This document shows, piece after piece, positions 24,810 through 43,392 of a stretch of 64,000 bases of DNA. A program made the translations under genes and the position numbers. Origin of the DNA: Halodesulfovibrio aestuarii DSM 17919 = ATCC 29578 (GTDB lineage Bacteria > Desulfobacterota > Desulfovibrionia > Desulfovibrionales > Desulfovibrionaceae); assembly GCF_000384815.1 (NCBI RefSeq), contig NZ_ARQF01000021.1, positions 1,116,001 to 1,180,000 of the forward strand, read 5' to 3'. Positions within the stretch are counted from its first letter, which is position 1; every line of letters begins with the position of its first letter. The notes under the pieces were generated by a model. The model ran no database searches, was not told the DNA's origin, and saw only the letters and a program-made list of their open reading frames with translations.

Positions 24810-25796
24810 CTAAACCACAGCTTCACCTTCAACACTGGTCACACCACCACTGGCAGTCATAGTATGAGTTGCTTTGGTAACGCTCCATTCGCCATCAATA
24901 CCGGTACGGAACTGTTTTAGAATCAGACGGGACTCTGCGACCAGATCGGGCGTAAAAGGTAATGACAAAGAAAGAGTCGCCTTGCCACGTGCAAAAGCTT
25001 TCAGCTGTTTCTGCACTGCGGTGGTTGCAGCTGCCATATCATTATACATGCATTTCAAACGATAGACAGGATCTCCAGTTCCTGCGGTTACTTCAATATC
25101 AGCAGATGCAGCGGTATCTCTAAAAATTGCCGTTACGCTTTTATATGCCTCACGCTGGGAGAGTTTAACAGAACCGCTCGTTACTTGATTCTTTGTAAGT
25201 GTAATAGTTGGCATTTGCTGCCCACGAATATTCTTCCCCTCACCGCGTTCCACAAACAGAAGTTTTCCGCCGTTAGCCTTGGCTATGGCATCATGATCTT
25301 TTGCTATGCGGGTAAGCACGTTCATGTCTGATTCATCGAGCTGATCAATATGCGGCAATGCGACTTGCACTAAGCTTGGAGCCACCGCCGCAACCAGACC
25401 GTGGTCATTGGCGATGGTGGCTACCAAGTCGCTGATAGTACCAGCGGGAAACGAACGGGACTTTTGCGACTGCAGCGGAGTAAGGCCGAATTTACTTTCA
25501 TCAAACGGTGCAGCATTGGCAGAAATCGTCAGACTATCTGGTGGAAAGTTTATTGCCACCTCATCTACCACATATTTGCCCATGAGCCGTAAGTTATCCT
25601 TGTAGCCCATGTATACTGCCAATTCTGCACCGGCATCCGGCAACGTAAAACCTGCATCACTCAGGGTAATACTCAGCTTGTCAGACTTATATCCGGCCTC
25701 ATCGGTAATGGTAATTTGGCTATTTTCTCCTTTGAGCAACGCTGAAATATCCTGCCCGTTTGCCTCTACTCGATAATCAAGCGAGTATTCTACCAT
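24810..25796 (-). CDS. phage late control protein gpD (tail spike hub)
   Basis: 328-residue P2 gpD homologue, equivalent to Mu gp44 and part of the T4 gp27-like hub at the tail base. Recognised by the N-terminal DYRVEANGQDIS, DKLSITLSDAGFTLPDAGAELAVYMGY, a central HIDQLDESDMNVLTRIAKDHDA stretch and the C-terminal AESRLILKQFRTGIDGEW. Overlaps gene X by seven bases. Last conserved gene in P2 tail order, as here. Confidence 0.92.
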   Translation of the reverse strand: MVEYSLDYRVEANGQDISALLKGENSQITITDEAGYKSDKLSITLSDAGFTLPDAGAELAVYMGYKDNLRLMGKYVVDEVAINFPPDSLTISANAAPFDESKFGLTPLQSQKSRSFPAGTISDLVATIANDHGLVAAVAPSLVQVALPHIDQLDESDMNVLTRIAKDHDAIAKANGGKLLFVERGEGKNIRGQQMPTITLTKNQVTSGSVKLSQREAYKSVTAIFRDTAASADIEVTAGTGDPVYRLKCMYNDMAAATTAVQKQLKAFARGKATLSLSLPFTPDLVAESRLILKQFRTGIDGEWSVTKATHTMTASGGVTSVEGEAVV

Positions 25797-26424: not shown

Positions 26425-28083
26425 TTACGCATACGCATGGTCATACAATGCGGCTGAATCATCGTTGAACTTGGCATGCACTACCTCTCCAATCTCATGT
26501 GAGTTTTGACCTTCTGCCCCATACACGTTGATAGTCACATTTCGATTATCTGTGATCTGTTTTGATTCAACTGAAGCCGAAGAAGAAAGCGGAACTTTAT
26601 TCAACGGCACTGGCTGGGTATATACGTTATCAGCAGGACGTACTTTCTGACTTGTTGGGAGACCTTCCGGCAGGGTTCCCTTTGAAACGGCTTGCTGCTG
26701 AACTGGCTGTGACTGTGCATAGGCACTACCAACAGAACTCGTTTTTGGACTTTTTGCAGGGATAGAAGGTGCGGTTTTCTTTTCTTTTTCCTCGTCATCC
26801 CCACCAACCCCAAAAAATTTTCCTAACGCACCGAGCACACCACCCGACTTGAATGCCTTGCACAACTCATCCCACATAAAAATAAGTCGTCCTACAGCAA
26901 TCACAGCCAGACCGATAGCTGCGCCAATAGGGTTCGCCATCACGGCAAGTCCCACAGCCCTAATTCCACCAATAAGAGCCGGAAACACACTGGACACAAT
27001 CGGCGCAATTGCCTGTCCGACAGACCACATGGTTTGCACCATGCTAATACCGGAATACACAAATTTGGCGCCCATAATACCACCAACAATTGCGGCTACA
27101 TTTCCGAACCCACCAACGGCGTCAGCAACCCATGCAATCATACTGCCTACGTTGCTCAATACGTTAAGCATACCAAAAGCAAACTCGCCTATTTTCGGTA
27201 AAGCTTCACCCAAGCCTGCGCCGAAAGCTTTGATATCGTCTCTATGTTCTTCAAACAACGCGGCAATCCTCGGCCCTATCTCCTGAATGTACGGAGCCAA
27301 CGCGCCACCGATCAGGCCGGAGAACTCGGCAGTCGCATTTGACAAAACACCGCTCACTCTTCCCATAGCCTGCGCGTATACAAGGGATCCTTCACGCCCC
27401 TCATCAGACAACACATTAAGCTTATTCTGCTGATCCAAAAGCTCATCTACGCTCTCTTTACGGCTACGAAGGAAGCTGAAAAGCTTGCCAGAATCACCGC
27501 CCATAAGGGTATTGGCCGCAGACTGCGCCGCCTGTGCATCGTCCAAATTTTTAATGGCGGAAGCGACGGTTTTAAACTTCTGCTCTGGAGAAAGGTTCTC
27601 AAGATCTTTAAACGAAAGTCCAATTGTCTTGAGAGAGTTAGTTACAGCCGAGTTATCCCCGAGTTTTAGAGGTTTTCCGAGGTTGGTGTTCATCTTTTTC
27701 ATGAGGTCACCAACAGTATTGGCCTTACACCCGGCCTCGTTGGCCAACCCGCCCCATGCCCCGAATGCTTCGCCCGAAACGCCTAACACTTTTGCAAGTC
27801 TCACCTGTTCGGCGGTCTGCGCATTAGCCTTGGTTATAACTGAAGCAAAAGCTGATGCCGCGCCCCACACACTCGACGCCATGTGCTTTGCCTGTTGACC
27901 GGTTTTGACAAAGGTATCGCCCACGTTCTTCATAGCGGGACTTGACGTTAGCTGCTCCTGCTTTTTTTTAACATCACGAATGGAGTCTCCTATTTTTAAG
28001 AAGCCACCCTTTACAATCTGCGTTGCAGACGTAAACGAGGACGCAACAGCGCCCCCGATTTTTATCATTGTACTAACTGCCAT
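26425..28083 (-). CDS. tail tape measure protein (P2 gpT-like)
   Basis: 552 residues. ATG 28083 is chosen because GGAGG stands five bases upstream, while 28116 falls inside the E' frame. Contains TP901-type tape-measure segments (LAKVLGVSGEAFGAWGGLANEAG, FKTVASAIKNL), hydrophobic helices in the middle (about 300-390) and a Pro/Ser/Lys-rich linker before the C-terminus. With about 0.15 nm per residue as family rule, the tail would be roughly 80 nm, short for a P2-like phage. Confidence 0.9.
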   Translation of the reverse strand: MAVSTMIKIGGAVASSFTSATQIVKGGFLKIGDSIRDVKKKQEQLTSSPAMKNVGDTFVKTGQQAKHMASSVWGAASAFASVITKANAQTAEQVRLAKVLGVSGEAFGAWGGLANEAGCKANTVGDLMKKMNTNLGKPLKLGDNSAVTNSLKTIGLSFKDLENLSPEQKFKTVASAIKNLDDAQAAQSAANTLMGGDSGKLFSFLRSRKESVDELLDQQNKLNVLSDEGREGSLVYAQAMGRVSGVLSNATAEFSGLIGGALAPYIQEIGPRIAALFEEHRDDIKAFGAGLGEALPKIGEFAFGMLNVLSNVGSMIAWVADAVGGFGNVAAIVGGIMGAKFVYSGISMVQTMWSVGQAIAPIVSSVFPALIGGIRAVGLAVMANPIGAAIGLAVIAVGRLIFMWDELCKAFKSGGVLGALGKFFGVGGDDEEKEKKTAPSIPAKSPKTSSVGSAYAQSQPVQQQAVSKGTLPEGLPTSQKVRPADNVYTQPVPLNKVPLSSSASVESKQITDNRNVTINVYGAEGQNSHEIGEVVHAKFNDDSAALYDHAYA

Positions 28084-28452
28084 CCTGCCTCCTGATCTCA
28101 TGCACCCACATGGCAAGCTCTTCGCATGTCATATCCATTAGCGCGTTGTATTCCCACCCTGTAAAATGAGAGAGATATAACACGTAATTTCGCGCCACCT
28201 CGGGTGTTAGGCTAAAAAACCCTGATATGCCTGTTGCAACTGGTAGTAGTCCGCCACTTCAAGCTCTTCAATTACATCTCTGGACACTTCACAGAGATTA
28301 GAAAACAGCACGAGTTCAACATCTGCGTTATCGCTTGCACTCTTTTGCGCGATAATCTGGTCACGCACCTTGGCAGAACGCACGGTTAATTCTTTATATT
28401 CATGACCAGCAACGGTAACAGGGTATTTCAATTTAATCTGTTCAGTTCGCAT
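28073..28452 (-). CDS. gpE/E' tail assembly chaperone made by -1 frameshift
   Basis: In P2-like tails a -1 frameshift near the end of gene E makes a minor E+E' fusion that chaperones the tape measure. Here the zero frame ends at 28207, but the slippery heptamer T-TTT-TTA lies at 28213-28219 on the minus strand. After slipping, an open frame of 46 codons runs to a stop at 28073, giving about 126 residues with a Trp/Tyr-rich E'-type tail (FTGWEYNALMDMTCEELAMW). The E' frame overlaps the tape measure start by 11 bases, as in known phages. Confidence 0.85.
28207..28452 (-). CDS. gpE tail assembly protein, zero-frame product
   Basis: 81 residues of the phage tail assembly chaperone family (PF10109-like): IKLKYPVTVAGHEYKELTVRS at the start and VADYYQLQQAYQGFL at the end. 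ATG 28452 has AAGGA just upstream; the TTG at 28467 would swallow that site. It is the major product; ribosomes that slip at the end make the longer E/E' form. Confidence 0.9.
   Translation of the reverse strand: MRTEQIKLKYPVTVAGHEYKELTVRSAKVRDQIIAQKSASDNADVELVLFSNLCEVSRDVIEELEVADYYQLQQAYQGFLA
28213..28219 (-). promoter_or_regulatory. -1 ribosomal frameshift slippery site
   Basis: Minus-strand TTTTTTA in the frame T-TTT-TTA, two codons before the gpE stop. This is a standard X-XXY-YYZ type heptamer (here X and Y both T) at the expected place in gene E. Confidence 0.82.
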
Positions 28453-28645: not shown

Positions 28646-29155
28646 CTACAGTCCGAGGTTAGCGCGGTGCTGAGCAAGCTGATCCACACCGTTAATGATG
28701 CGTTTCATGTTCAGCACATCAATTTCGTGCACTTCTTTGCCATTCTGCGTGTATTTGTAGAAACTCAGGTTTACTGTGTACTCGGTTGAAGACTCGCCGC
28801 CTTCTGACCACGCACCGGGAGCAATTTTAGTCACTTTGCCTGTCATGTTTACAGTTACGGGAGTAATCGTACCGTCGTAGCTTTCAAGGCTGCCTTTTGC
28901 TGTAAGCCGCACGCCACTGTCTTTGTTGACGCCGAACAGATTGAGTGTTTCCACACAATTTTTTGTTGTGGAGAAGGTTACAACAAGCTCTTCCATGCCT
29001 TTATCGAGCGAAATCGGTGCATCCATGCCACCGGCACGGAACTGTTCAAGTTTTAAGCTTAATTCAGGCAGTTTTACTTCTTTGAGGTTACCCGCAAAAC
29101 CATACCCATCAACAAACAGGTTAGCACTTTTCAACACATTTTCTGCTACTGCCAT
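28646..29155 (-). CDS. tail tube protein gpFII
   Basis: 169 residues of the P2 FII family: VLKSANLFVDGYGFAGNLKEVKLPEL at the start, FRAGGMDAPISLDKGMEELVVTF in the middle, and IDVLNMKRIINGVDQLAQHR at the C-terminus. The start overlaps the sheath stop as TAATG. Forms the inner tube of the contractile tail. Confidence 0.95.
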   Translation of the reverse strand: MAVAENVLKSANLFVDGYGFAGNLKEVKLPELSLKLEQFRAGGMDAPISLDKGMEELVVTFSTTKNCVETLNLFGVNKDSGVRLTAKGSLESYDGTITPVTVNMTGKVTKIAPGAWSEGGESSTEYTVNLSFYKYTQNGKEVHEIDVLNMKRIINGVDQLAQHRANLGL

Positions 29156-30357
29156 TACTGAAATACCTCCTCAACGTAGCCATTAGTCATACGGCTGCGG
29201 AATGTTACACGCTCTGCGGTGTATGCAGGAGTAAAGTCGAAATCAAAGTAGGTATGGCCCTGTTCAATTTCGCTTGCACTGTTAATTTCTGCATCAACCC
29301 AGCATTTACCACCAAGAATAGCGCCCTTCTGCTCCATAGTGCGAAGGAACTGGTTTACAGATTCCTGCACCGCTTCAAAATAGATACGCCCTACAGGTCT
29401 ATCCACTGCCCACATGTGTGCCTGCTGGATAGATTCGTTAATCATATCCGCAATACGACGGGTAGAAAGGAAGGACCAACGAGCATCGCTTGATGTAGTA
29501 CGGTTACCCCACAGTCTGTAGCCATCTTCACAAATAATGGTGGCAACTTTGTTTTCGTTCAGCACGTTTGCTTCACTTGCAGTATCGCCAAGCTCAAACG
29601 GAATAGGTCGCGCAGTGCCGGAAATTCCCAGAATCTCCTGGTTAGAAGGAGACCACCAGAAACCTTTATCCGCGTCAGTTTTGGCAATAAGGCCGGCAAC
29701 ACGCGCGGAAGCAGGTTCATCCTCAAACACGCCATTGCGGTATACAGTTACGAATGGCGCAACAATGTAAACGCGGGCAGAGCCGAACAGTTTGGCATCC
29801 TGCATTGCTGCTTCAGAATCTGAACTACAGCCATCTTTAATAGCAATTGCGTTAAGTCTGTCTGCAATAGTTTCCAATTCAGCAGCAACAGGGTTTTTAA
29901 GGTAGGTTCCTGCATTGTCAGGATCTTCATAACGCTGATGCGTGAAGCCCGGAGCGAGCAGGAGTTTCGGTTTAACAGCGCACTTGGATTTTGCACCAAG
30001 GAATGCATGCACACCCTTCATACCTGTAACGTCAGTACCACCGACAACATTTGTCATAGTGGCTTTTTCGTCTGCACCTTCTGCAACACGTACAACAACC
30101 ACAAGGCCGTGATGCTGATCAAAAATCGCATCCATTGCATTCGGGAGTGTACCGGCACGATTGCCTGTTGTGTCCAGTTTAGCTGCCTTAAGCGGGCTGC
30201 CATAAATCAATACCGGAGTATCAAGCGGAAATTCTGTTTCGTCCGCATCCGGAGCGGTACCGACAATACCGATCACTGAAGAGCGGACTACCTTAACTGG
30301 ACGGCCACCTTCGTCGATCTCAATAAATTCGACACCATGTAAAAAATCTGTACTCAT
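29155..30357 (-). CDS. contractile tail sheath protein gpFI
   Basis: 400 residues, P2 FI family. FLHGVEFIEIDEGGRPVKVVRSSVIGIVGTAPDAD is the characteristic N-terminus; further LLLAPGFTH, EDGYRLWGNRT and the C-terminal domain with YFDFDFTPAYTAERVTF. Its presence fixes the structure as a contractile, myovirus-type tail. GAGG lies upstream of the ATG. Confidence 0.96.
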   Translation of the reverse strand: MSTDFLHGVEFIEIDEGGRPVKVVRSSVIGIVGTAPDADETEFPLDTPVLIYGSPLKAAKLDTTGNRAGTLPNAMDAIFDQHHGLVVVVRVAEGADEKATMTNVVGGTDVTGMKGVHAFLGAKSKCAVKPKLLLAPGFTHQRYEDPDNAGTYLKNPVAAELETIADRLNAIAIKDGCSSDSEAAMQDAKLFGSARVYIVAPFVTVYRNGVFEDEPASARVAGLIAKTDADKGFWWSPSNQEILGISGTARPIPFELGDTASEANVLNENKVATIICEDGYRLWGNRTTSSDARWSFLSTRRIADMINESIQQAHMWAVDRPVGRIYFEAVQESVNQFLRTMEQKGAILGGKCWVDAEINSASEIEQGHTYFDFDFTPAYTAERVTFRSRMTNGYVEEVFQ

Positions 30358-30372
30358 GTGTTACAATCCTCA

Positions 30373-30702
30373 CTATGTATCTTGGGTTAAACATTCATCT
30401 AATTTTATATTGAGCGCTGCGAGTTCTTCCCGCAACGCTTCTGCCTGATCTTCAAGCTCTTCAAGCCGCGCCTCGTCCTCTTCTGTTGCTCTACCTGCAA
30501 CTTTTGCGCGTAATGGACGCACAGAAGCGAGGTCGTTAGCGGTGAGCAGCTGTTGGATTTCGGTAATACGTTGTTGTGTAAGTTCACATTCTGTTGGCAA
30601 TGATGGCGGATTTTGCGCATCCCACTCATCAACTTCATAATAACCATCTGGCTTTACTTCCCAAACTTCTGGATTCCCTTCAGGGCTTACATATATAGGC
30701 AT
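30373..30702 (-). CDS. tail fibre assembly chaperone 1
   Basis: 109 residues encoded directly behind fibre 1. Shares the block LTQQRITEIQQLLTANDLAS...RPLRAK with chaperone 3, followed by a charged coiled-coil-like region. Position and gpG-like size support a fibre assembly role. The N-terminal ~35 residues (VSPEGNPEVWEVKPDGYYEVDEW) are private to this copy and may match the tip of fibre 1. Confidence 0.75.
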   Translation of the reverse strand: MPIYVSPEGNPEVWEVKPDGYYEVDEWDAQNPPSLPTECELTQQRITEIQQLLTANDLASVRPLRAKVAGRATEEDEARLEELEDQAEALREELAALNIKLDECLTQDT

Positions 30703-30707
30703 AATTT

Positions 30708-32078
30708 TTACCTTAAATATTCTTTGATAACGATAAGTCCATTGCCTCCATGACCAGAGCGAGTTAACGTTGCATGCATATCTCTACCAGCACCGCCACC
30801 ACCATTGTGACCGTCCAGAATTGTAGGTAATGGCGTCCCCACGGAGTTTACTCCAACACCATTGCCTCCCCAATATGAAGCTCCTCCAGCACCGCCGTAG
30901 CCTTCGTTGCTACCAAAATCACCGCCGCCACCATACAAGTTTATATCACCACCACTAGCACCATCCCCCTTACCACCACTGTTAGCCATTACAGGGCGAT
31001 TACCGCCGTAACCATATTGATATTTAAAACTGCTGTTCCCGCCATTACTCCCTTCTCCAGAAGTCCCAATCCCTCCGGCACCAACTACAATGGTTTCACT
31101 ACCTCCTAAATCGGAGGCCAAATATGCTTTGATTGATGTACCACCAGCACCGCCACCGCCCGCACCAGTACTAAATAATAGTCCCCCACTTCCTCCACCT
31201 CCTGTCACAGTTACTTCGGCTGCGATGAGGTTTGCAGGCTTCGTATATGTTCCGGAGCTAGTAAAAGTTACAATATTTATGGACTGGGTACCGGAAGCAG
31301 GTAGCCAACTTTGACCAGCTTCGTTTTTAGTAAGCACCTCTCCAACAGATCCCCCTGTTGGCACGTGCACGGCAGTATCTCCGGTATGTGCCACAATCTT
31401 CTTGTACACCGCATTCACAGCTTTCGACGTTGCGATCTTAACTGTACTGGTAGACGTACACGCACTGCTCATTACTGACTTGAGTAATTCCCATACACCT
31501 ATTGGAGTACAAGCAAGATCACTTGCCGTTTTAGCTGTATGCTCTTCTACTGTTGCAAGACGCACAAAACCTGTTTGTGCTGTGGTTGCAAATCGATGCG
31601 CTTCCGGATCTGCATTGTGGTCAAGCACATCCTGCTTGGTTGCCAAAGCTACAGCAGTATCAATGACAAGACTCACATCATCCGCATTCTCAAAATGCAG
31701 GGGCAGACGAACCACCAGATCACGCACGGAGCCATTTACGGCAACGGGCTTTTCGGTATCAGGGAAATTGCCGACGCAGAACAGCTTGCCGCTTTCATCC
31801 AACAAGCCCACTTCTCGAATAGTGAAGCCGCCTGTATCTGCTGGAATGGCAAATTCAAAAATGAAGGTATTAGGATCGTCAGAATCAACTTTGATTCCAG
31901 CAACTTCTCCTCGCCACACTTCGTTAACAAGGGTTGTCATGCCCTTGTTAGGGATAACAGCAAGACCATTCCCATCACCGACAACGGCGTGTGTCAGGGA
32001 AAAGCTCTGGCCTTGCGTGGAAGCAAGCCCCAAGGCTTGGAGTCCTGTATCCGTAACTACGGTATAAAAATCAGGCAT
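30708..32078 (-). CDS. tail fibre 1 with glycine-rich tip
   Basis: 456 residues. The N-terminal ~240 residues are the shared P2 gpH-like attachment module (MPDFYTVVTDTGLQALGLA...). The C-terminal ~180 residues form a glycine-rich domain (TGGGGSGGLL, GAGGGGAGGTS, NLYGGGGDFGSNEGYGGAGG), reminiscent of the polyglycine tips of T4-like gp38 and S16 adhesins that bind surface receptors. ATG 32078 has GGAGA upstream. It is the last of three tandem fibre genes and is paired with chaperone 1. Confidence 0.88.
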   Translation of the reverse strand: MPDFYTVVTDTGLQALGLASTQGQSFSLTHAVVGDGNGLAVIPNKGMTTLVNEVWRGEVAGIKVDSDDPNTFIFEFAIPADTGGFTIREVGLLDESGKLFCVGNFPDTEKPVAVNGSVRDLVVRLPLHFENADDVSLVIDTAVALATKQDVLDHNADPEAHRFATTAQTGFVRLATVEEHTAKTASDLACTPIGVWELLKSVMSSACTSTSTVKIATSKAVNAVYKKIVAHTGDTAVHVPTGGSVGEVLTKNEAGQSWLPASGTQSINIVTFTSSGTYTKPANLIAAEVTVTGGGGSGGLLFSTGAGGGGAGGTSIKAYLASDLGGSETIVVGAGGIGTSGEGSNGGNSSFKYQYGYGGNRPVMANSGGKGDGASGGDINLYGGGGDFGSNEGYGGAGGASYWGGNGVGVNSVGTPLPTILDGHNGGGGAGRDMHATLTRSGHGGNGLIVIKEYLR

Positions 32079-32270
32079 ATTCTCTCCAGATTTATGACAA
32101 CTCAGCACCACACATCACCACAGTACCAAGCTGTATTTACACTGCTTTTTTCGATAAAATTTCAATCAAACTTAAAACGGGTAGCAACAGTAAGCCCCCA
32201 CCACACGGAACACTGCCACAAATTTTGTCAACACTGTCAGGGAAAGATAAACGATCATCTGCGACGTCGG

Positions 32271-32618
32271 TTAGTTCTTCGGCTTTTTCAACCATTGACA
32301 CTTTTTCAAAAATGACAGCTTTGTGGAGCCCTTCGTTGACGCACTCTGGCCTTCTGGTGATTCCGGCTTGGCAAATCTTGCGCCTTCTGGAATCTGCCCT
32401 TCAACTGCCGTTATTTCGTGTTCAGAACCGTCCGGCATGTAGTATTTTGTTCCACGCATATCCTGCACATAATCCCACGCTTCACCGTTCCACTTAGGAT
32501 AGAACCCTTCGCGTTGTTCCGGAGCTTCACGAGTTGCATTCAACGGTGGAAAATTGTCAGGATTCGCATAGCCGGAATACGAGTAGTACCCGTGTTCATT
32601 AAAATAATGATTTTGCAT
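32271..32618 (-). CDS. tail fibre assembly chaperone 2
   Basis: 115 residues, directly after fibre 2 (GGAG lies inside its end). The Tyr-rich N-terminus (HYFNEHGYYSYSGYANPDN) and central EGFYPKWNGEAWDYVQD resemble gpG/gp37-type fibre assembly proteins. The C-terminal SFLKKCQWLKK matches the end of chaperone 3 (SFLKKCNWLR), while the LTQQ block of copies 1 and 3 is absent, so the chaperones are mosaics. Confidence 0.75.
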   Translation of the reverse strand: MQNHYFNEHGYYSYSGYANPDNFPPLNATREAPEQREGFYPKWNGEAWDYVQDMRGTKYYMPDGSEHEITAVEGQIPEGARFAKPESPEGQSASTKGSTKLSFLKKCQWLKKPKN

Positions 32619-32620
32619 AA

Positions 32621-33628
32621 TCACACTCCAAGTGGCGGAAGATAGATTGCAGGGATGAAGCCATAGTTTTTTGGGCGATTTTCGTGAGAGGTTGGAACGA
32701 TGCGTGATACGTCCAAGCCCAAACCGCTTCTCAAGATAGTACTAGTGCCAGTTGCACCAGATAAACTTTCTCCTGTCGCAAAAAGTGCTCCATTTTCATA
32801 GTCATTTTTTGTTTCGCCATGCTGCATCAGCATTTGACCTGTTATGTTACGTATTGCATCTCCCTGCGTACTACCAACAGACCGACTCCCCCCATCAACA
32901 AAGCGTGGAAAATACCCGTCTCCATTTTCATCAAAGACATTCGGCATAAACACATGTGTTTCATTTTCGATTACACGATGCGCTGCCTTGTATGCTGCAC
33001 TCATAGAGAGCAGCGTCTTACCTGCATCTGAAGTTTTAAGCAGCCCTTCACCGTTCGGTACATAGTGGTGTGGTGGCAGCTCGTCTGGAGGAAAAGGAAC
33101 CGGATAAATGTGTCCGGCTGGCATAGTCCAACAGGCATCAATGATACGCTGAGTCAATGCATCCATCCCATTCTTCACGTCCTGCTTAGTGGCAATTGCC
33201 ACAGCGGTATCAATGACAAGACTCACATCATCCGCATTCTCAAAATGCAGGGGCAGACGAACCACCAGATCACGTACAGAGCCATTGACGGCAACAGGCT
33301 TACCTGTCTCTGGGAAATTGCCGATGCAGAACAGCTTGCCGCTTTCATCCAGCAAACCGACTTCTCGAATCGTAAAGCCGCCAACATCTGCTGGAATGGC
33401 AAATTCAAAAGTGAAGGTGTTAGAATCGTCCGAATCAACTTTGACTCCAGCAACCTCTCCGCGCCATACTTCGTTAACCAGAGCTGTCATGCCTTTGTTT
33501 GGAATAACGGCAAGACCGTTCCCGTCACCGACAACGGCATGCGTCAGGGAAAAGCTCTGGCCTTGCGCGGAAGCAAGCCCCAAGGCTTGAAGTCCTGTAT
33601 CCGTAACTACGGTATAAAAATCAGGCAT
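32621..33628 (-). CDS. tail fibre 2, short form with collar-like tip
   Basis: 335 residues, the shortest of three fibres. The shared N-terminal module covers about 150 residues; then the sequence switches to a phage tail-collar type domain (AGHIYPVPFPPDELPPHHYVPNGEGLL, IRNITGQML, SRIVPTSHENRPKNYGFIPAIYL). It lacks the second shared stretch (HNADP...VYKKI) found in fibres 1 and 3. ATG 33628 has the same GGAGAGAAT ribosome site as fibre 1. Confidence 0.87.
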   Translation of the reverse strand: MPDFYTVVTDTGLQALGLASAQGQSFSLTHAVVGDGNGLAVIPNKGMTALVNEVWRGEVAGVKVDSDDSNTFTFEFAIPADVGGFTIREVGLLDESGKLFCIGNFPETGKPVAVNGSVRDLVVRLPLHFENADDVSLVIDTAVAIATKQDVKNGMDALTQRIIDACWTMPAGHIYPVPFPPDELPPHHYVPNGEGLLKTSDAGKTLLSMSAAYKAAHRVIENETHVFMPNVFDENGDGYFPRFVDGGSRSVGSTQGDAIRNITGQMLMQHGETKNDYENGALFATGESLSGATGTSTILRSGLGLDVSRIVPTSHENRPKNYGFIPAIYLPPLGV

Positions 33629-33821
33629 ATTCTCTCCAGATTTATGACAACACAGCATCTTTCTTCATTACAGCACCCTGTTGTCTCACTCTGCTTTTTC
33701 AAATTTTACGTTGGCCACACTAAAAACTGTTCGTTATTACACCGCAAAAAACGGTACCAAATGCTATTCATTAACTACGTAACGCTGTCGGGTTAAGAGA
33801 AACTATCCTCTGCGGCTTCGG

Positions 33822-34301
33822 TTAGTTCTTCCCCATGCGCAGCCAATTGCACTTTTTCAAGAACGACTGCTTTGTGGAACTCTGCTCTGGTTGACTCTGG
33901 TCTTCAGAAGATTCAGGATTGGTCAATGCTACGAGTTCTGACCGCAACGCTTGTGCCTGTGTTTCAAGCTCAACAAGACGAGCTTTATCCGCGTCTGTTG
34001 CTGTACCTGCTGCTTTTGCGCGTAATGGACGTACAGAAGCAGAGTCATTTGCGGTGAGCAGCTGTTGGATTTCGATAATGCGTTGTTGTGTGAGCTCCTG
34101 CTCTGTTGGTTCAGGTAGAGCCGGTGGTTCCACGGCAATAGGATGGCCGTTTTCATCTAGCTGAATAACCTTTCCTTGTTCCAATGCTCTTACAAGAGCA
34201 GAATGTTCCTCTAATGTAATAGGAACAGCTCGCTGCGGAATCTCTTGATGCACTGTAGAAAGGTAAAAACCACCAGATTCAGGGTCATAATATCTCTTCA
34301 T
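33822..34301 (-). CDS. tail fibre assembly chaperone 3
   Basis: 159 residues, starting right after fibre 3. Private N-terminus (RYYDPESGGFYLSTVHQEIP), then the LTQQRIIEIQQLLTANDSAS block shared with chaperone 1, and the SFLKKCNWLR ending shared with chaperone 2. Looks like the parent arrangement from which the other two could have been derived by deletion and recombination. Confidence 0.77.
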   Translation of the reverse strand: MKRYYDPESGGFYLSTVHQEIPQRAVPITLEEHSALVRALEQGKVIQLDENGHPIAVEPPALPEPTEQELTQQRIIEIQQLLTANDSASVRPLRAKAAGTATDADKARLVELETQAQALRSELVALTNPESSEDQSQPEQSSTKQSFLKKCNWLRMGKN

Positions 34302-34302
34302 T

Positions 34303-36024
34303 TTATTTACCTATTGCATTCCAATATATGTTACGACCATTAGCTAAATGCGATAGAACATTAAGAATAGCTTCGAAGCCAGTTAACTTGGGTACAGCCA
34401 CACTAACAATTGCAGTATCATATCGATACATTCCGTTTATGACATCCAAGTCATACGAGTTAACTCCTACACCATAAGTGATTGTTATTGAGCTATAGTC
34501 TGTAAAAGCAACTGGAAATACTTGGTCAATATTATGGTATGAAGCATTTACAAGATTGACGGTGCACCAACGTTGTTCAATAAATCCGTCAGGACGCCGC
34601 CAAGCTTTCCCCGGAACCAACTCCACCCACTCGGAACGATCAACCTTGTTTCCATTAATTGCCGCCACCTGCTGCGCAAGAGCCTGCATATCAATCTGTC
34701 CAGCATTAATGGCCACATCAAATGCTTTGATGCACGGAAGAACATAGGAGGTCTTCGGGCGGTTTTCTTCGGCGGTTGGGACGACACGAGAAGCTCTAAA
34801 GTCAACATCACCAATCTGGTTTCCTGAACCAGCGGAAGGAGTTGAACTGACAACAGTACTAACAAATGCACCGTCTGTTGTAGTTAGTACACCTGATATT
34901 CGACCGACTGTGCCTGTGATCTCACGAATCGCATCCCCAGCCCAATCACCAGCCGCCTTGTCTCCATGAGCCGCCGCAAAGTATTTGGTATAGCAAGGCA
35001 AAATGAAGTAGTCCCCGCCGTCCCAACAGTACTTACCGCAAGAGCCATCTTGTACTGCGGCCTCAGCATCCCACGCGGCTTCATCTGTAAGGTACGTCCC
35101 ACACTTCTTCATCCATTCGAAAAGCTGCGGAGCTAAACTGCAAAGTATCTTCTGCTTCACGTTGACAGGAATTGTACCGGGCAAGGCTTCTCCAGTTGTA
35201 GAGAAGCAAAGTTCACCAACAGGAACACCTGCAACGGCCCCCCATGCTATACTCCCATCTTCCTGCTTTATAAGCACCTGCCCCGCCTCACCTACATCAA
35301 GCGGCAATCCGTGGGGAGCCGTGTCGCCCAAGTGTGTTGTGATCTTCTTGTACACCTCGTTCACAGCCATTGACGTTGCAACCTTGACTGTACTGGTAGA
35401 CGTACACGCACTGCTCATTACAGACTTAAGTAATTCCCATACGCCTATTGGAGTACAAGCAAGATCACTTGCAGTTTTAGCTACATGCTCTTCATCTGTT
35501 GCAAGACGCACAAAGCCTGTTTGTGCTGTTGTCGCAAGTCTGTGCGCTAACGGATCTGCATTATGATCAAGCACGTCCTGCTTTGTTGCCAACGCAACTG
35601 CTGTATCAATGACTAGATTCACTTCATCCGCATTTTCAAAATGCAGAGGCAGACGAACTACCAGATCACGCACGGAGCCATTGACGGCAACGGGCTTTTC
35701 CGTATCCGGAAAATTGCCGATGCAAAACAGATTGCCGCTTTCATCCAACAAACCGACTTCTCGAATCGTAAAGCCGCCTGTATCTGCTGGAATGGCAAAT
35801 TCAAAAATAAAGGTATTAGGATCGTCAGAATCAACTTTGATTCCTGCAACCTCTCCGCGCCATACTTCGTTAACCAGAGCTGTCATGCCTTTGTTTGGAA
35901 TAACGGCAAGACCGTTCCCGTCACCGACAACGGCGTGTGTCAGGGAAAAACTCTGGCCTTGCGTGGAAGCAAGCCCCAAGGCTTGAAGTCCTGTATCAGT
36001 AACTACGGTGTAAAAATCAGGCAT
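34303..36024 (-). CDS. tail fibre 3, long form
   Basis: 573 residues. Shared N-terminal module (about 1-240), then a private region with a collar-like motif (DAIREITGTVGR, SRVVPTAEENRPKTSYVLPCIKAF) and a C-terminal beta-rich domain (WVELVPGKAWRRPDGFIEQRW, ITITYGVGVNSYD) similar in style to gp12/gp37-type fibre ends. It is the first fibre gene after gpI, the canonical P2 gene H position. Confidence 0.9.
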   Translation of the reverse strand: MPDFYTVVTDTGLQALGLASTQGQSFSLTHAVVGDGNGLAVIPNKGMTALVNEVWRGEVAGIKVDSDDPNTFIFEFAIPADTGGFTIREVGLLDESGNLFCIGNFPDTEKPVAVNGSVRDLVVRLPLHFENADEVNLVIDTAVALATKQDVLDHNADPLAHRLATTAQTGFVRLATDEEHVAKTASDLACTPIGVWELLKSVMSSACTSTSTVKVATSMAVNEVYKKITTHLGDTAPHGLPLDVGEAGQVLIKQEDGSIAWGAVAGVPVGELCFSTTGEALPGTIPVNVKQKILCSLAPQLFEWMKKCGTYLTDEAAWDAEAAVQDGSCGKYCWDGGDYFILPCYTKYFAAAHGDKAAGDWAGDAIREITGTVGRISGVLTTTDGAFVSTVVSSTPSAGSGNQIGDVDFRASRVVPTAEENRPKTSYVLPCIKAFDVAINAGQIDMQALAQQVAAINGNKVDRSEWVELVPGKAWRRPDGFIEQRWCTVNLVNASYHNIDQVFPVAFTDYSSITITYGVGVNSYDLDVINGMYRYDTAIVSVAVPKLTGFEAILNVLSHLANGRNIYWNAIGK

Positions 36025-36032
36025 AATAATTC

Positions 36033-36584
36033 CTAGTTAGCTTTAATGCGCCCTAATTCATAAATGGTCACAAACTCACCGCAGAATACAGCACTGGATA
36101 CAAGCGGCTTTTGCGTCAACGCTGCTGGTGTGAGCGCAATTTTCCCAAGATGGGAGCGACAGTTCTTCGCCGCATTCACAACTCGTTCAACTTCTTGATA
36201 GGTTGCTTCTTCCGCTTTGTATCCCGCGGGAAGCTGTACCTCTAAGTCATAGGTTGCGGGTGCGCCCTTCGGTTCTGTTTCCCACCATTGAATTGCACGC
36301 ACCGCAATGCCCAGCGCGCCTAAAGCTTCTTCAACGGCTCCGCATGTGCCTTTCTTTTTATGTACACTAATAGAACGGGCTGTTATCTGCCGTTTCTGCT
36401 CATCGCTCCACTCCTCGTTCCACTCATCCACAGAGCGCTCGTAGGCCAGCCATGGAAGCGTGGCCATAGGGCTTTGGGATGGATTACGAATCCTGTCGAT
36501 AAGCACAGGCAGGGAAAACGAACGGGCACACGTTTTTTCAAGAGCGCGTTCATACTTGGTGGCATTCGATGGAAGCAACGACAT
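36033..36584 (-). CDS. baseplate protein gpI
   Basis: 183 residues, P2 gpI family: LLPSNATKYERALEKTCAR, FSLPVLIDRIRNPSQSPMATLPWLAYERSVDEW and KKKGTCGAVEEALGALG. The start overlaps the gpJ stop (TAATG at 36582-36586). Wedge component linking the fibres to the baseplate. Confidence 0.93.
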   Translation of the reverse strand: MSLLPSNATKYERALEKTCARSFSLPVLIDRIRNPSQSPMATLPWLAYERSVDEWNEEWSDEQKRQITARSISVHKKKGTCGAVEEALGALGIAVRAIQWWETEPKGAPATYDLEVQLPAGYKAEEATYQEVERVVNAAKNCRSHLGKIALTPAALTQKPLVSSAVFCGEFVTIYELGRIKAN

Positions 36585-37474
36585 TAGACCGCCACCAGTT
36601 CACTATGCAGTGTAATATTGGTGCAGAATGCGGCCTCATGATTGTCATTCATGATGTCTCCTGCCGGTTGCGTAATTTCCACACGGTGCACACCTGCAAT
36701 ATGCAGAGCTGCATCGATGCCGGATCGGGCTACGCACATGCCGAGAGCGTGGCTCTTAGCAACGTAGGTTTCCAGATTCTTCCGAGCCTCAACAAGAACA
36801 GACTCAGCAGACGGCCCGGGCATGAAATACAGAGTGGCATCTATCTGGTATTCTTTCACTGTCGCCGGTTTAATCTGCAAATAATCAGTAAACGGGCGAA
36901 CATCGCCGTTAAAGACATCCTCCACAGAATCAAGCAATGCCTGATCCGGTACGCCGTTTCCTTTTTTAGAAAGGATGTACAAGTCTACTTCGACCGGAGC
37001 GGGAGACGCCGGATACGCATCCTTTACGCCCACAACAGACATCGCATGAAAAATATACGCTCCTTCAGGCCCCGCGGTGCTGAATCCTTCCGGCGCAAGC
37101 ACAACACGTTTTCTGAAGTCGGCATCAGATTCATATGTTGGTGGCACAGGCGGATATGCCTTAGGATCACCCGCATTCAACATCTTGCGTTTCAACGGAA
37201 CACCAGCGGCAAGATGGTCTAAATCCTCAGCTTCAGCGTACGCAACAAGCACAGCCTTAACCGCCTCATTAATTCGCTGGCGCAGCAGTAATTCACGATA
37301 CGCATTTGCCTCAAAAATCTTGTACGCAGGGTCAGATGACAACGGTGCCGTAAAATCAGGATCAAGCTCTGCATGATAAGCAAGCATCTCCTGTAAGATC
37401 TGCTCCACGCTCAGATCTTCAATAATTTTAGGCGGTGCAAGGGTCGAAAGATCGATTGCGTTAAATACACTCAT
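36584..37474 (-). CDS. baseplate assembly protein gpJ
   Basis: 296 residues, P2 gpJ (Baseplate_J) family: IDLSTLAPPKIIEDLSVEQILQEML at the start, FEANAYRELLLRQRINEAVKAVLVAYA, then VPPTYESDADFRKRVVLAPEGFSTAGPEGAYIFHAM. Overlaps gpW by four bases (ATGA). Confidence 0.95.
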   Translation of the reverse strand: MSVFNAIDLSTLAPPKIIEDLSVEQILQEMLAYHAELDPDFTAPLSSDPAYKIFEANAYRELLLRQRINEAVKAVLVAYAEAEDLDHLAAGVPLKRKMLNAGDPKAYPPVPPTYESDADFRKRVVLAPEGFSTAGPEGAYIFHAMSVVGVKDAYPASPAPVEVDLYILSKKGNGVPDQALLDSVEDVFNGDVRPFTDYLQIKPATVKEYQIDATLYFMPGPSAESVLVEARKNLETYVAKSHALGMCVARSGIDAALHIAGVHRVEITQPAGDIMNDNHEAAFCTNITLHSELVAV

Positions 37475-37809
37475 TTTACTTCTACCCCCTCAAGCGTAAT
37501 CTGCTTGCCGTCCGGCAGGTATTCACCCACCAGATCAAGCACAACAACGCCTTCACGAGTTGACGCAATGCGTACACTCGTAAGTTTAAAGCGCGGCTCC
37601 CAGCGGTTTAACGCTTCCGCTGTGGCTGCATAAAATTCAAGAGAAGTTTCGGCGTTAACCGGTGCATCAATCAGGGCTGGCAACCGCGAACCATACTCAC
37701 GGTTTAAAACGCGAGTACCAATTCGGGTTGACAGAATGTCGGCAATAGACTGCCGCAAATGTGCTATTCCGGAGAGTCTCGCTCCGGTGTCTTTATTGAT
37801 ACCTTTCAT
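37471..37809 (-). CDS. baseplate assembly protein gpW (gp25-like)
   Basis: 112 residues of the GPW/gp25 family (PF04965): RIGTRVLNREYGSRLPALIDAP is the signature. No good ribosome site is seen before the ATG. An inverted repeat lies in the gap to gpV upstream. Confidence 0.93.
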   Translation of the reverse strand: MKGINKDTGARLSGIAHLRQSIADILSTRIGTRVLNREYGSRLPALIDAPVNAETSLEFYAATAEALNRWEPRFKLTSVRIASTREGVVVLDLVGEYLPDGKQITLEGVEVK

Positions 37810-37901: not shown

Positions 37902-37924
37902 TTTTGAAGATGGCGGATACGCTA

Positions 37925-38605
37925 CTAGCCGGGAGACTGAGTTCTCCCCTCCCTGCAACTATGCGTATGGCTATTCAACGACACGTGCGCTTTAACATCG
38001 CTATCAGTTGTAATATCGCCTGTAGTATGGAGAGTACCTTTAAAGGAAGCATTACCGCCGTTGCTGCCGCCACCTTGAGATAGAGATCCGTTAATTATAG
38101 TTTGACCGTTCAGGGTAATCGTCGGTGCAGTAATAGTTGCACTTGTTCCTGCATCTACAGAGACAGCCGCCCCTGCTTTTGCTGAAATATCCTTTTGGGC
38201 CTCTGCCTGAATATTGCCTGTCGCAAGCACGTTCACATCACCTTTAATATCCGCAGTCAGCACATGCGCTGCCCTGTCGTACGAGATTACAGAACCGTCC
38301 TTGTAGACGGTTTTCTGGATCTCGGAACTGTGCTCCGGTGCAGGAAATTTTGTTTGATTCAGGACACCGACAATAACACCCAATGCTTGCCCCGGAGGGG
38401 TGATGACAAAGACCTGCTCATCAACTTCTAAGGAATCATATGTGCGGTTCCCGGCGGCTCTGGTTGTGAGCCACGGCAGGTAGTCCGTAACCACGGTTCC
38501 GAACGCCACGCGCGCGGTGTTGTTCTGATAATTAACAGAATGCACCGTCCCTATCCGCACGAGAGTATTAAACTGACGTTGTAACTCAGCTAGCTGGAAG
38601 CTCAT
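37925..38605 (-). CDS. baseplate spike protein gpV
   Basis: 226 residues, P2 gpV family. OB-fold (about 15-95; VHSVNYQNNTARVAFG, YLPWLTTRAAGNRTYDSLEVDEQVFVI) then a beta-helical region of short repeats (ADIKGDVNVLATGNIQAEAQKDISAKAG). The C-terminus holds His213-Thr-His215 (SHTHS), matching the His-x-His apex that binds iron in P2 gpV. Membrane-piercing tip of the tail. Overlaps its upstream neighbour by 20 bases. Confidence 0.93.
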   Translation of the reverse strand: MSFQLAELQRQFNTLVRIGTVHSVNYQNNTARVAFGTVVTDYLPWLTTRAAGNRTYDSLEVDEQVFVITPPGQALGVIVGVLNQTKFPAPEHSSEIQKTVYKDGSVISYDRAAHVLTADIKGDVNVLATGNIQAEAQKDISAKAGAAVSVDAGTSATITAPTITLNGQTIINGSLSQGGGSNGGNASFKGTLHTTGDITTDSDVKAHVSLNSHTHSCREGRTQSPG

Positions 38606-39191
38606 GTATCACCTCTTCTACCGATGTATATTTATCGATATATGCCAGCCCGATCTCCGGAGCCATAGACGCATAAGCCTTCTGCGGGGTTTGAAACTCG
38701 TCTTTAAAGCATGACTCTCCAAGGCACACAGACTGTTCAAATGTCACAATCCACGCATTCAAACCAGTCAACTCCGGCGCAAGTTGATATTCCTTCGCCG
38801 CAACAAACTTTGCGCCCATAATTTTACAACCGAACTGATTGTTATGAATGAAAGTTGAGACACGGGCGGCAAGCTCACGTACGTTCAAATCTGCTTTTTC
38901 AACAGATTGACTGCAAACAACACGCAGCTCCCATCGCAGCTTTATGGCAAGCTCTTCAGTCGCTGTAGGTACATCATTTTCAAATGAAGCAAGTGACAAC
39001 ACCAGAGCAGGCAGGTTCAGTTCATTACTACCTGAAGCCTGCTCCTGCATAAGAGCATCATAGTCACACACGGTTACGGTCGGGAAAGCTTCACGTAAGG
39101 CGTTCTCTATACCTCCGTGCAAAGCTCCAATTGTTATTTCTTCTACCTGTACAAGATTGTCCACGTTAGTTCCTGCTCCAAGGTCATACAT
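38586..39191 (-). CDS. phage protein before gpV, probable tail terminator/completion protein
   Basis: 201 residues resembling Mu gp37 / DUF1834-type tail proteins: GGIENALREAFPTVTVCDYD, LPALVLSLASFENDVPTATEELAIKLRWELRVV. Occupies the place where P2 has tail completion genes R and S, so a tail terminator function is inferred. ATG 39191 is used; an upstream TTG at 39227 is in frame, and neither has a clear ribosome site. Confidence 0.65.
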   Translation of the reverse strand: MYDLGAGTNVDNLVQVEEITIGALHGGIENALREAFPTVTVCDYDALMQEQASGSNELNLPALVLSLASFENDVPTATEELAIKLRWELRVVCSQSVEKADLNVRELAARVSTFIHNNQFGCKIMGAKFVAAKEYQLAPELTGLNAWIVTFEQSVCLGESCFKDEFQTPQKAYASMAPEIGLAYIDKYTSVEEVIHELPAS

Positions 39192-39433
39192 TGTGTTGTA
39201 AAATTTCAGCAAAAATATTGTCCTCAAAATACGTCACTGCATTTACAAGGACGTTTCCGGTATGCAGCACAACAGAGGTATTCTAAGAAAACGCACTCCG
39301 CATTTTCAGCCGGTGTCTGCGTTTAGTTGTTTCAATCCTGCACTGTAGTAACGCGGTTTCTTTTTCCAATTCCAGTATGATTTGAAACTCTGCCACTGAT
39401 TCCACAGATACTTTGACAGCACCGTACCGTCTC
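39192..39433. promoter_or_regulatory. intergenic region before the tail operon, candidate activator-dependent promoter
   Basis: 242 bases between the Mor-like activator gene and the first tail gene on the same strand. The only long gap inside the late region, and the natural place for a promoter driven by the activator. No strong sigma-70 promoter is visible on the minus strand, as expected for a Mor/C-dependent promoter; no binding site could be defined. Confidence 0.4.
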
Positions 39434-39817
39434 TTATCGCTGCGCCTTCAACCAACGGTAATAGACTGTCTTCACGGATGACACAGACATATCCATAGCG
39501 CGCGCAACGTCCTGATGGGTCATGCCCTGCTCCCGCATCTGGATGATCTGCCTGTTGCGCTCCAGTTTGGTCACGCTTGAACATTTTGGAATGGTCAACG
39601 GTTCGCCTGCGTACTCTGTTGCCAAGTCCCGCGCAGATTCTTCACCGATTGTCTGTACCAGCCAGTGCGAAGGCTTCATCCGGTCAGGTGCCGGAACGTA
39701 CAGACTACGGCACTTGGATTGCCGCTTGCCCCGCACCAATGCCATTGTTTTCTCAAACCCGATAACATCCGCAATGCCTTGCGCTGTTGCCGGCAAATAT
39801 GCTTTTTCCGGTTGCAT
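39434..39817 (-). CDS. Mor-like transcription activator
   Basis: 127 residues of the Mu Mor/C activator family. N-terminal dimerisation part (IADVIGFEKTMALVRGKR, LYVPAPDRM), the IGEESARDLATEYAGEPLTIPK segment that matches the Mor core, then a HTH: NRQIIQMREQGMTHQDVARAMDMSVSSVKTVYYRWLK. In Mu, Mor drives middle and C drives late genes; here it would activate the tail operon that follows after 242 bases. GGTGGGG precedes the ATG. Confidence 0.82.
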   Translation of the reverse strand: MQPEKAYLPATAQGIADVIGFEKTMALVRGKRQSKCRSLYVPAPDRMKPSHWLVQTIGEESARDLATEYAGEPLTIPKCSSVTKLERNRQIIQMREQGMTHQDVARAMDMSVSSVKTVYYRWLKAQR

Positions 39818-39829: not shown

Positions 39830-40132
39830 TTACTTTTTGAGTTTGAGATTTTCAGCAAGCTCACATGTCCGTTTAGACAGAATATCCAGCAGCTTACCGC
39901 CGTTGTATCCTGCCAACCCTGTCACAGCTGCTTTCTGATCCGGAGTTAAAAACGCCACATCCTGCAAAAACAGCGAGACAACAACGCCAGTAAAGGCCGC
40001 TACCAGCATGGCAATCAGCGTGGCTTTAAACGTACAATTTGTCCGCACCGCCCGAACAAGACCGCCCAGAACAGAAATCACAAGCGGGGGCAAAAGCCCC
40101 CATAATTGAACTAGAAAATCTTTTTCCGGCAT
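39830..40132 (-). CDS. phage holin (LydA-like)
   Basis: 100 residues with an N-terminal helix (LLPPLVISVLGGLVRAV) and a second (ATLIAMLVAAFTGVVVSLFL), then a short cytoplasmic tail. Resembles superfamily III / LydA-type holins. Its start overlaps the stop of the 71-residue gene. Part of a lysis cassette. Confidence 0.78.
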   Translation of the reverse strand: MPEKDFLVQLWGLLPPLVISVLGGLVRAVRTNCTFKATLIAMLVAAFTGVVVSLFLQDVAFLTPDQKAAVTGLAGYNGGKLLDILSKRTCELAENLKLKK

Positions 40133-42162: not shown

Positions 42163-43134
42163 CTACTCCTGCATCAAGCTTTCGAACACGTCATTGTTGC
42201 GCTGGCTGACGGAAGCACCACCCCGTAGCGACGCGGTTTTGCCCTTCTTCGGCAAATACGTTCCCTCTTCAATCTTCACCATGTTGGCTGTCTTCAATAT
42301 CCAGTCAAAGCTTGCTGTCCAGCCACGATCATTATCGCCAGCAAGGAACGTACTCCGGCAAACCAGCCTGAAATACCCCTCCCACCACTCGAGGAACTGT
42401 TTGCCATTGCCGCTCTTCCACACCGCGCGCACACGGGCCTTGCGCTGCGTTGTCATATCCCGACACTGCGGCAATCTTGTACAGATACGGTTGTACGCTT
42501 CTTTAATTTTCTCGTACGGACAATTCGGAATGGCCGGCTCTTCTTGGGAATCCTCCCCTACAGTTTTTGCAGTTTCAATAACTCCAGCAGATTCAGCCAA
42601 GCCAGAAGTGACATCCGGAGAATCATCGACACACTTATCTTCTCCTGTTCTCTGTTCTCTGCTTTCTGTTCTCTGATTAGGGAAAGCATGCGCCAATTCT
42701 TCAGCAAAGGTTTTACTGAAGGCTTCCCGAAAGCCTTGGGAAAGTCCGTCCACCAAGAATTTTACACCGACAAGAATGTCTGTACGTAGCGCGCTTTCCG
42801 GCAATTCCCTGAAACCGTAGTGCCAGCTTTTAACCACATTAGGACTCTCCGGCAGGTTGTACCGTAAGAAATTAGGGAACCAGATAAGGAGCTTTCCATC
42901 GTGCGTAATAATCCCTTGCGTTAAGACTTCCTGGAAACCTTTCGTGAAGGCTTCCAACTCCATACCCAGCTCACAAGCAAGACCGGGGACATTCGCCCGT
43001 AAGGCACCAAGTTGCGTTAAATCCGGATGCGTCAGCATGAAGAACACAATCAGCTTGGCATCATTAGAAAGGGCCATAAACTTAGCATCGTTCCAAATAC
43101 ACACGGAGATCTTGCGATAACGCCGCTTACTCAT
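42163..43134 (-). CDS. phage replication initiation protein, O-like
   Basis: 323 residues. N-terminal winged-helix-like region (RKISVCIWNDAKFMALSNDAKLIVFFMLTHPDLTQLGA, about 8-110) as in phage replication initiators; acidic linker; C-terminal domain with YNRICTRLPQCRDMT, WEGYFRLVCRSTFLAG and GWTASFDWILKTANMVKIEEG, typical of O/DnaD-like C-termini. ATG 43134 has GTGAG upstream and is preferred over a GTG at 43146. A replication gene in a headless tail island points to descent from a full prophage. Confidence 0.72.
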   Translation of the reverse strand: MSKRRYRKISVCIWNDAKFMALSNDAKLIVFFMLTHPDLTQLGALRANVPGLACELGMELEAFTKGFQEVLTQGIITHDGKLLIWFPNFLRYNLPESPNVVKSWHYGFRELPESALRTDILVGVKFLVDGLSQGFREAFSKTFAEELAHAFPNQRTESREQRTGEDKCVDDSPDVTSGLAESAGVIETAKTVGEDSQEEPAIPNCPYEKIKEAYNRICTRLPQCRDMTTQRKARVRAVWKSGNGKQFLEWWEGYFRLVCRSTFLAGDNDRGWTASFDWILKTANMVKIEEGTYLPKKGKTASLRGGASVSQRNNDVFESLMQE

Positions 43135-43392
43135 GAATTTACTCACTTATTTTGTTGCGTTGCGAATAAAGTTATTGCGTACAGCAAAGCGTTGCGGAAT
43201 ACCGTACCTCCCCGATTACAATTTTACGAATAACGCCCAGTCCTGTTGCGCTGGGCGTTATTCGTGTCCGCCCCCCCCAACCAGTGGGTTCCCCATCATC
43301 TTTCCATTCTTATGCAACGACGTTTGCCATACCGGACGAGATACCACGCGGTTACAGAAATGCGCAACTAAAAGTTGACACAAGGTTACAAA
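43135..43392. promoter_or_regulatory. divergent control region with TTGCG repeats and a 14-bp palindrome
   Basis: 258 bases between the O-like gene and the divergent XRE gene. TTGCG occurs at 43155-43159, 43160-43164, 43175-43179, 43192-43196 and 43246-43250; the inverse CGCAA lies at 43363-43367. A perfect 14-bp inverted repeat (43227-43240 / 43251-43264, CGAATAACGCCCAG and complement) encloses a 10-base loop that holds one TTGCG. This looks like a phage switch region with multiple operators; the palindrome could also act as a terminator. Confidence 0.6.

Follow-up and report, generated by a model that had tools for sequence, protein, structure and literature searches.

The window analysed here, a stretch of 64,000 nucleotides from contig NZ_ARQF01000021.1 (C21) of Halodesulfovibrio aestuarii DSM 17919 = ATCC 29578 (GCF_000384815.1; 3.5 Mb, referred to as G000), carries an element that, judged by its genes, is a headless, R-pyocin-like tailocin. 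The stretch at 30373-36024 is best explained (probability about 0.75) as the fibre module of this tailocin, in which three competing fibres would each have their own tip and chaperone and the array would be altered by homologous exchange. According to this model, a temperate Halodesulfovibrio phage would have lost its head genes and become a tailocin. The common N-terminal anchor of each fibre would dock on the C-terminal part of the baseplate protein gpI/Tri2, each fibre would bring its own receptor-binding tip and dedicated chaperone, and the three fibres (F1, F2, and F3) would compete for the same baseplate sockets. A producing cell would be expected to release particles of more than one specificity, either as separate particle types or as mixed particles. 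Ordinary homologous exchange would change the array, with no part for an invertase or a retroelement; the anchors, the chaperone C-halves, and the spacer ends would serve as common recombination arms and the distal tip plus the chaperone N-half as the mobile unit. Competition for the same sockets, leading to particles with different targets, is the most likely outcome predicted from this gene set, and the target range may be wide, as the initial annotation of this DNA had suggested.

The map of open reading frames showed three complete, open fibre genes on the minus strand, each followed by a small chaperone gene (Table 1), which bears out the three tandem cassettes of the initial annotation. 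The start codons of F2 and F3 were set at the internal ATG of MPDFYTVV. All three fibres are anchored by a PF12571 (Phage_tail_fib) domain and lie in one cluster, which is thus a multi-fibre locus. The repeat search revealed a 300-nt family with three copies at 31626, 33176, and 35572 (matching the reference copy at 89% and 91%), a further 300-nt pair shared by F1 and F3 (88%), and, within and behind the chaperones, one pair of 182 nt (82%) and one of 160 nt (73%). The 5' halves of the fibre genes, previously described as nearly identical, were located correctly, but they are less alike than this wording implies. Over the first 150 codons the DNA identity is 90.7% for F1-F2, 90.9% for F1-F3, and 89.6% for F2-F3, and the proteins are 93-97% identical. 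Synonymous divergence (dS) reaches 0.31, 0.43, and 0.40, respectively, and therefore the anchor copies are not very recent. The three copies differ at 62 of 453 sites, hence an assembly artefact is unlikely. The ratios of nonsynonymous to synonymous divergence (dN/dS = 0.131, 0.035, and 0.095 in the same order) indicate that purifying selection acts on all three anchors.

The tips, which had been called unrelated, are not all so. F3 has a Gly_rich_2 tip with no match among solved structures. The tips of F1 and F2 have a collar-like stretch in common (34% over 82 aa, E 5e-8), and both match the solved short tail fibre 9cuy. Moreover, the similarity of F1 and F3 continues through anchor and shaft to about codon 220, while F2 diverges at about codon 150. 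The chaperones are mosaics, as had been proposed. Chaperones 1 and 3 share a C-terminal module (75% over 71 aa between the C-half of chaperone 3 and chaperone 1), whereas between chaperones 1 and 2 the similarity is confined to the very end of the C-terminus and part of the following spacer. The Caudo_TAP match of chaperone 1 is slightly below the Pfam cut-off. Chaperone 2 is 76% identical over 86 aa to the chaperone of a T-B fibre (the tip class of F2) in locus L033, and chaperone 3 is 67% identical over 98 aa to the chaperone adjoining a relative of the F3 tip in locus L053.

Which segments move as units was examined in related loci. Matches to gpI were present in 12 of 39 genomes including G000, that is, at 13 other places in 11 genomes, of which nine were mapped. 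The headless loci other than the window are those of G007 contig C8 (G007C8), G008, G009, and G002. Tip classes and the number of cassettes vary at equivalent places of the related loci, so the comparison suggested in the initial annotation, made here between species, gave the expected variation. For a concordance test based on permutation, the fibre end was defined as the last 120 aa and the chaperone N-half as the first 55 aa, and 23 cassettes were used (from the 28 distinct fibres, the 22 with a chaperone nearby, and one further cassette entered manually; the split G007C8 fibre was omitted). Among the 253 pairs, 18 were similar in both parts, nine in the fibre end only, three in the chaperone only, and 223 in neither (P = 5e-5). 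For the nearest 17 cassettes these numbers were 17, 5, 0, and 114; adding the six more distant cassettes brought three chaperone-only and four end-only pairs and left P unchanged. On the other hand, the chaperone N-half did not follow the anchor (one pair similar in both, 21 in the anchor only, 20 in the chaperone only, 211 in neither). These counts demonstrate that, in the sequences compared, the distal fibre end and the chaperone N-terminus move as one unit.

Individual cases are in line with this. The T-B tip and its chaperone are found in F2 and in cassette a of G002 (G002a); the T-C tip and its chaperone in F3 and in L053, a separate fibre locus of G009; and the T-D tip and its chaperone in phage L025, in G009a, and in L039, another locus of G000. 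At position a, the anchors of G002 and G009 are 71% alike and the tips differ (T-B and T-D), each with the matching chaperone. In G002b, the middle collar is of class T-A (that of F1), yet the end and the chaperone are both G006-like, and therefore the chaperone follows the distal end.

A second unit lies at the other end of the fibre. The gpI N-terminus of G007C8 is 83% identical to that of the window and 73-81% to those of G002, G009, and G008, whereas its C-terminus is 89% identical to the window and 32-44% to the other three. The G007C8 anchor behaves in the same way (87-91% to the window anchors, 33-37% to those of G002 and G009), and between G002/G009 and the window the values are 32-39% for the gpI C-terminus and 36-40% for the anchor. 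Both parts of G007C8 are thus window-like although the concatenated tree groups this locus with G002/G009. The gpI/Tri2 C-terminus and the fibre anchor, as these comparisons establish for the loci aligned, travel together. This may indicate that the C-terminal part of gpI/Tri2 is the docking site of the anchor; such a docking pair would explain why all three window anchors are of a single type.

Exchange is also visible inside the array. A run of 12 polymorphic anchor sites at nt 105-174 is the same in F1 and F2 (P 5e-5, or 3e-4 when only silent sites are counted), and at the nucleotide level the anchors form a patchwork in which one block is solid. In G002 and G009, anchor identity is 71% for a-a, 73% for b-b, and 59-67% for a-b. 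Anchors are therefore more alike by position, homogenisation there is weak, and the two-cassette plan predates the split of these genomes, with replacement of the tip at position a. Recombinational exchange between conserved modules, put forward in the initial annotation, is supported by the linked modules of related loci and by the patchwork anchors.

The element around the array agrees with the previous reading as a headless tailocin, since tail genes are present and head genes are reduced to fossils. Genes for sheath, tube, tape measure, baseplate, and fibres are all present, as in an R-type tailocin, and the nearest solved relatives of the sheath, the tube, gpJ/Tri1, and gpI/Tri2 are R2-pyocin proteins. 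In R2 pyocin of Pseudomonas aeruginosa the same four components are found and, to the extent that the PA numbers reveal it, the genes stand in the same order; R2 pyocin has one fibre and one chaperone, versus three of each in the window. Phage L025 (G007 contig C6), closely related to the element, carries the large terminase subunit, the portal, and a capsid-protease fusion between its Mor-like gene and the first tail genes, as well as a Nu1-like gene in the head module, slightly below the cut-off. The window keeps remnants in the L025 order, namely the Mor-like gene end (87.5% of 40 nt), the terminase end, and the neck-type gene end, and no other convincing match to the L025 head proteins was found in the window besides the fossils at 39137-39404. 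For the GpA terminase, G000 has a single match, which lies on contig C10. No PF00589 integrase was found in the window (nine matches in G000, the nearest at C21:1072302; no search for Mu-type transposases was made). The window thus lacks the terminase, portal, capsid, and integrase of an intact prophage.

Several observations weigh against the explanation by three competing, exchanging fibres. In the concordance test, 12 of the 30 similar pairs are discordant (9 + 3). The cassettes are not all independent and therefore the permutation P is optimistic, although it stays at 5e-5 after one near-copy is dropped. In the anchors, the F2-F3 run of six sites (P 0.004) is not significant with silent sites alone (P 0.12), and F1-F3 give no conversion signal (P 0.4). 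Within the F1-F2 block, it is mostly F3 that deviates when the two outgroups are compared, so that conversion of F3 by another source is no less possible than exchange between F1 and F2. Chaperone 3 had no match of its own in the Pfam and PHROG searches. Regarding particle release, a holin was found and no endolysin was identified (no family search for endolysins was made), and the window has no more than a weak remnant of a gene whose intact copies stand in L044, L032, and L033/L034.

Other explanations have to be considered. F1 lies directly behind gpI, and a spacer of about 190 nt precedes each of F2 and F3, so F1 alone could be used, with F2 and F3 kept as a silent reserve of sequence for recombination into F1; in Xenorhabdus, anchorless extra fibre genes have been proposed to swap with the main fibre end (PMC13280938). 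Nevertheless, F2 and F3 keep whole, constrained anchors and their own chaperones, and the terminator-like signals that would cut them off are not in excess (12 versus 11.0 expected from shuffled sequence in 28500-40000; promoter-like signals, 10 versus 13.7 expected, are not in excess either, and the spacers likewise hold no surplus of either kind), which makes this explanation unlikely. It is also quite unlikely that the locus is a functionless, decaying prophage remnant with three leftover fibres. The deleted head genes, the lack of a PF00589 integrase in the window, and the weak remnant near the replication genes would fit such decay, but the tail genes are open, with dN/dS of 0.03-0.12 against L025 in seven of eight (gpU is saturated, and the span includes the time before head loss), and the three anchors are constrained relative to one another.

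A hidden switch, that is, a site-specific inversion or a retroelement that selects the expressed fibre, is highly improbable. No serine recombinase (PF00239) was found in the G000 genome, so that the lack of an invertase noted in the initial annotation holds genome-wide, and no reverse transcriptase (PF00078) of the kind expected in a diversity-generating retroelement was found there. No inverted pair of at least 25 nt, of the kind expected in an invertible fibre locus such as the Mu G segment or carotovoricin, was found in 25000-42000 at the stricter setting, and all three cassettes have the same orientation. Points in favour of a switch are the presence of an invertase in some tailocin fibre loci (PMC13195805; PMC13280938), the tyrosine recombinases elsewhere in the genome (the nine PF00589 matches), and two imperfect inverted pairs seen at lax settings (27 nt, 78%; 18 nt, 89%), each with one arm in a fibre gene and the other about 10 kb away, outside the cassettes.

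The three-fibre array raises the question of whether fibre number is linked to head loss. The headless loci have three fibres in the window, two in G009, two in G002, one of window type in G007C8, and one without PF12571 in G008. Nothing convincing matching the L025 head proteins was found in the G007C8, G008, G009, and G002 loci. Head genes were confirmed in L025, L036, and L038; for L035 and L037, the 20 kb examined showed a neck-type gene and nothing else of a head. All five have one fibre between gpI and the sheath. Two or three fibres are thus present in 3/5 headless loci versus 0/3 with confirmed head genes (and 0/2 with the neck-type gene only), too few to test. A tree built for ten loci on nine concatenated tail proteins places the window beside phage L025 (support 100) and unites the other four headless loci (support 76); the latter value is moderate, and trees of single genes give a less clear picture. 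When the outgroups are taken into account, the branching implies that the head was lost at least twice, or regained once. A tentative and rather doubtful reading, taken from these sequences, is that head loss frees selection for more fibres: headlessness would have arisen at least twice in the genus and arrays of two or three fibres separately in the window and G002/G009 lineages, head-bearing relatives keeping one, with ordered cassettes built from two exchange units. If this were true, the result would be a natural ordered cassette system whose units are the gpI C-terminus plus anchor and the distal tip plus chaperone N-half.

When 247 genomes of the family were searched, 59 had PF12571, with neighbouring copies on one contig in four, G000 (3), G002 (2), G009 (2), and G041 (2, weak matches), a count that may be low since draft contigs can hide more. 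Among 395 genomes of the phylum, PF12571 matched in eight, with neighbours only in G000. In annotated phages the anchor matched 293 records at 301 places, hence at most eight extra places, and the 60 matches listed had one anchor each. One scan of viral contigs gave one locus, IMG/VR L059, with the same genes and identities as G007C8, so it is no independent case. The single fibre of G007C8 is split over two frames (L027 14549-15379 and 15324-16247) and L059 shows the same split; the two are probably the same strain. G041, which belongs to a different genus of the family, has two weak Phage_tail_fib fibres in tandem next to gpI/gpJ-like genes (L045 5178-9622).

Multi-fibre tailocins are already known, and this locus adds unusually clear evidence of which gene segments move as units. 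Tailocin clusters typically have one fibre gene, and the multi-fibre trait is apparently typical of rhizosphere bacteria, Gram-negatives (review PMC12090994). In Pseudomonas chlororaphis, one tailocin with three fibre genes gives three distinct complexes (Dorosky 2018, via PMC12090994), and the killing ranges of two tailocins of this species have been attributed to fibre-chaperone pairs (PMC13280938). The window resembles that R-tailocin in its three fibre genes in one cluster; unlike it, the host is a sulfate reducer of another phylum. Xenorhabdicin loci also have many fibre and assembly genes, a conserved N-terminal fibre domain, and variable tips, but the extra fibres there are anchorless and in some strains inverted (PMC13280938), whereas those of the window are all anchored and in the same orientation. 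As in the carotovoricin of Pectobacterium, homologous recombination would diversify the fibre locus, but about half of the carotovoricin loci carry the invertase ein (PMC13195805), for which no counterpart was found in the window genome. Joint sharing of a fibre and its cognate chaperone has been described between distant Alteromonas phages, where, unlike in the window, the modules belong to phages (PMC10579305). Among the papers listed for Desulfovibrio tailocins and Halodesulfovibrio prophages, no title or opening of an abstract described this locus. Multi-fibre tailocins would now reach sulfate reducers, beyond the rhizosphere bacteria named in the 2024 review (PMC12090994). Furthermore, the set of related loci makes it possible to test which precise segments recombine when a tailocin changes its target, and whether headless particles tend to gain fibres because such particles need no longer match a host able to replicate them.

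Table 1. Features of the tailocin element in window coordinates, with one gene of related loci in the last row. The names gpV, gpW, gpU, and gpE were given by gene position alone.
Feature	Position	Strand	Description and matches
Fibre F1, 573 aa	34303..36024	-	Anchor aa 1-150; shaft as in F3 to ~aa 220; collar-type tip (class T-A), variable end; PF12571 E 9e-45
Chaperone 1, 159 aa, F1 partner	33822..34301	-	N-half tip-specific; C-half common to chaperone 3, tail to chaperone 2; PHROG 188 tail fibre assembly E 2e-19
Spacer upstream of F2	33629..33821	-	Both ends like those of the spacer before F3, middle unlike (alignment)
Fibre F2, 335 aa	32621..33628	-	Anchor and short collar-type tip (class T-B); PF12571 E 8e-44; PDB 9cuy short tail fibre E 7e-8
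Chaperone 2, 115 aa, F2 partner	32271..32618	-	PHROG tail-fibre/assembly matches, best E 6.5e-8
Spacer upstream of F3	32079..32270	-	Alignment
Fibre F3, 456 aa	30708..32078	-	Anchor, shaft, glycine-rich tip (class T-C); PF12571 E 4e-44; PF21722 Gly_rich_2 E 3e-6
Chaperone 3, 109 aa, F3 partner	30373..30702	-	No Pfam or PHROG match; C-half like chaperone 1
gpI/Tri2 baseplate protein	36033..36584	-	Tail_P2_I E 2e-40; R2-pyocin Tri2 PA0619 E 1e-25; C-terminus co-varies with fibre anchor
gpJ/Tri1 baseplate protein	36584..37474	-	R2-pyocin Tri1a PA0618 E 2e-68
gpW-like baseplate gene	37471..37809	-	In place in 9/9 mapped gpI-containing related loci
gpV-like spike gene	37925..38605	-	In place in 9/9 mapped gpI-containing related loci
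Contractile sheath	29155..30357	-	Pfam sheath domains; R2-pyocin sheath PA0622 E 4e-76
Tail tube	28646..29155	-	R2-pyocin tube FIIR2/PA0623 E 1e-39
Tape measure protein	26425..28116	-	PHROG tape-measure matches; PhageMin_Tail
gpD-like hub	24810..25796	-	Phage_GPD E 4e-7, slightly below cut-off
Fossil, 3' end of neck-type gene closing the L025 head module	39137..39214	-	75% over 167 aligned positions to L025 8486-8652, alignment continues into next gene, E 6e-26
Fossil, 3' end of terminase large-subunit gene	39311..39404	-	77% over 97 aligned positions to L025 3496-3592 within GpA terminase gene, E 1e-15
Mor-like late activator	39434..39817	-	PHROG 836 E 7e-24; Pfam Mor
LydA-type holin	39830..40132	-	Phage_holin_3_3 E 3e-8
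Replication initiator, O-like/DnaD-like	42163..43146	-	PHROG 345 E 3e-24 and others
HTH repressor-like regulator	43375..43911	+	Pfam HTH_3, HTH_31
Small conserved gene	L027 16824-17162; L029 17428-17742; L031 13227-13565; L033 7152-7487		Sub-threshold Pfam DUF1353 match only

Besides these features, two regulator types occur in the one element, the Mor-like activator and a small zinc-ribbon protein at 41116-41304, with NrdR-like and Ogr-like matches that are both below the cut-off. The weak remnant mentioned above, at 41396-41503 (36% of 36 aa, E 0.002), belongs to a gene of unassigned family, intact versions of which lie behind replication genes in L044, L032, and L033/L034 (the last cut by the stretch ends). 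The gene at L044 15956-16447 was considered as an M15 endolysin and rejected, as it had no Pfam match. PADLOC gave no match for three proteins. Outside the element, the window flanks showed only distant paralogs when compared with those of relatives, and the flanking genes, searched in 10 genomes of the genus, gave a single block, the one at about 21.8-23.75 kb, which is present in G007 and G002.

A small conserved gene lies between the last chaperone and the sheath in all four other headless loci. No match to it was found in the window, L025, L026, L038, and L044. It carries a CNIHDWMY motif, which we take to be phospholipase-A2-like.

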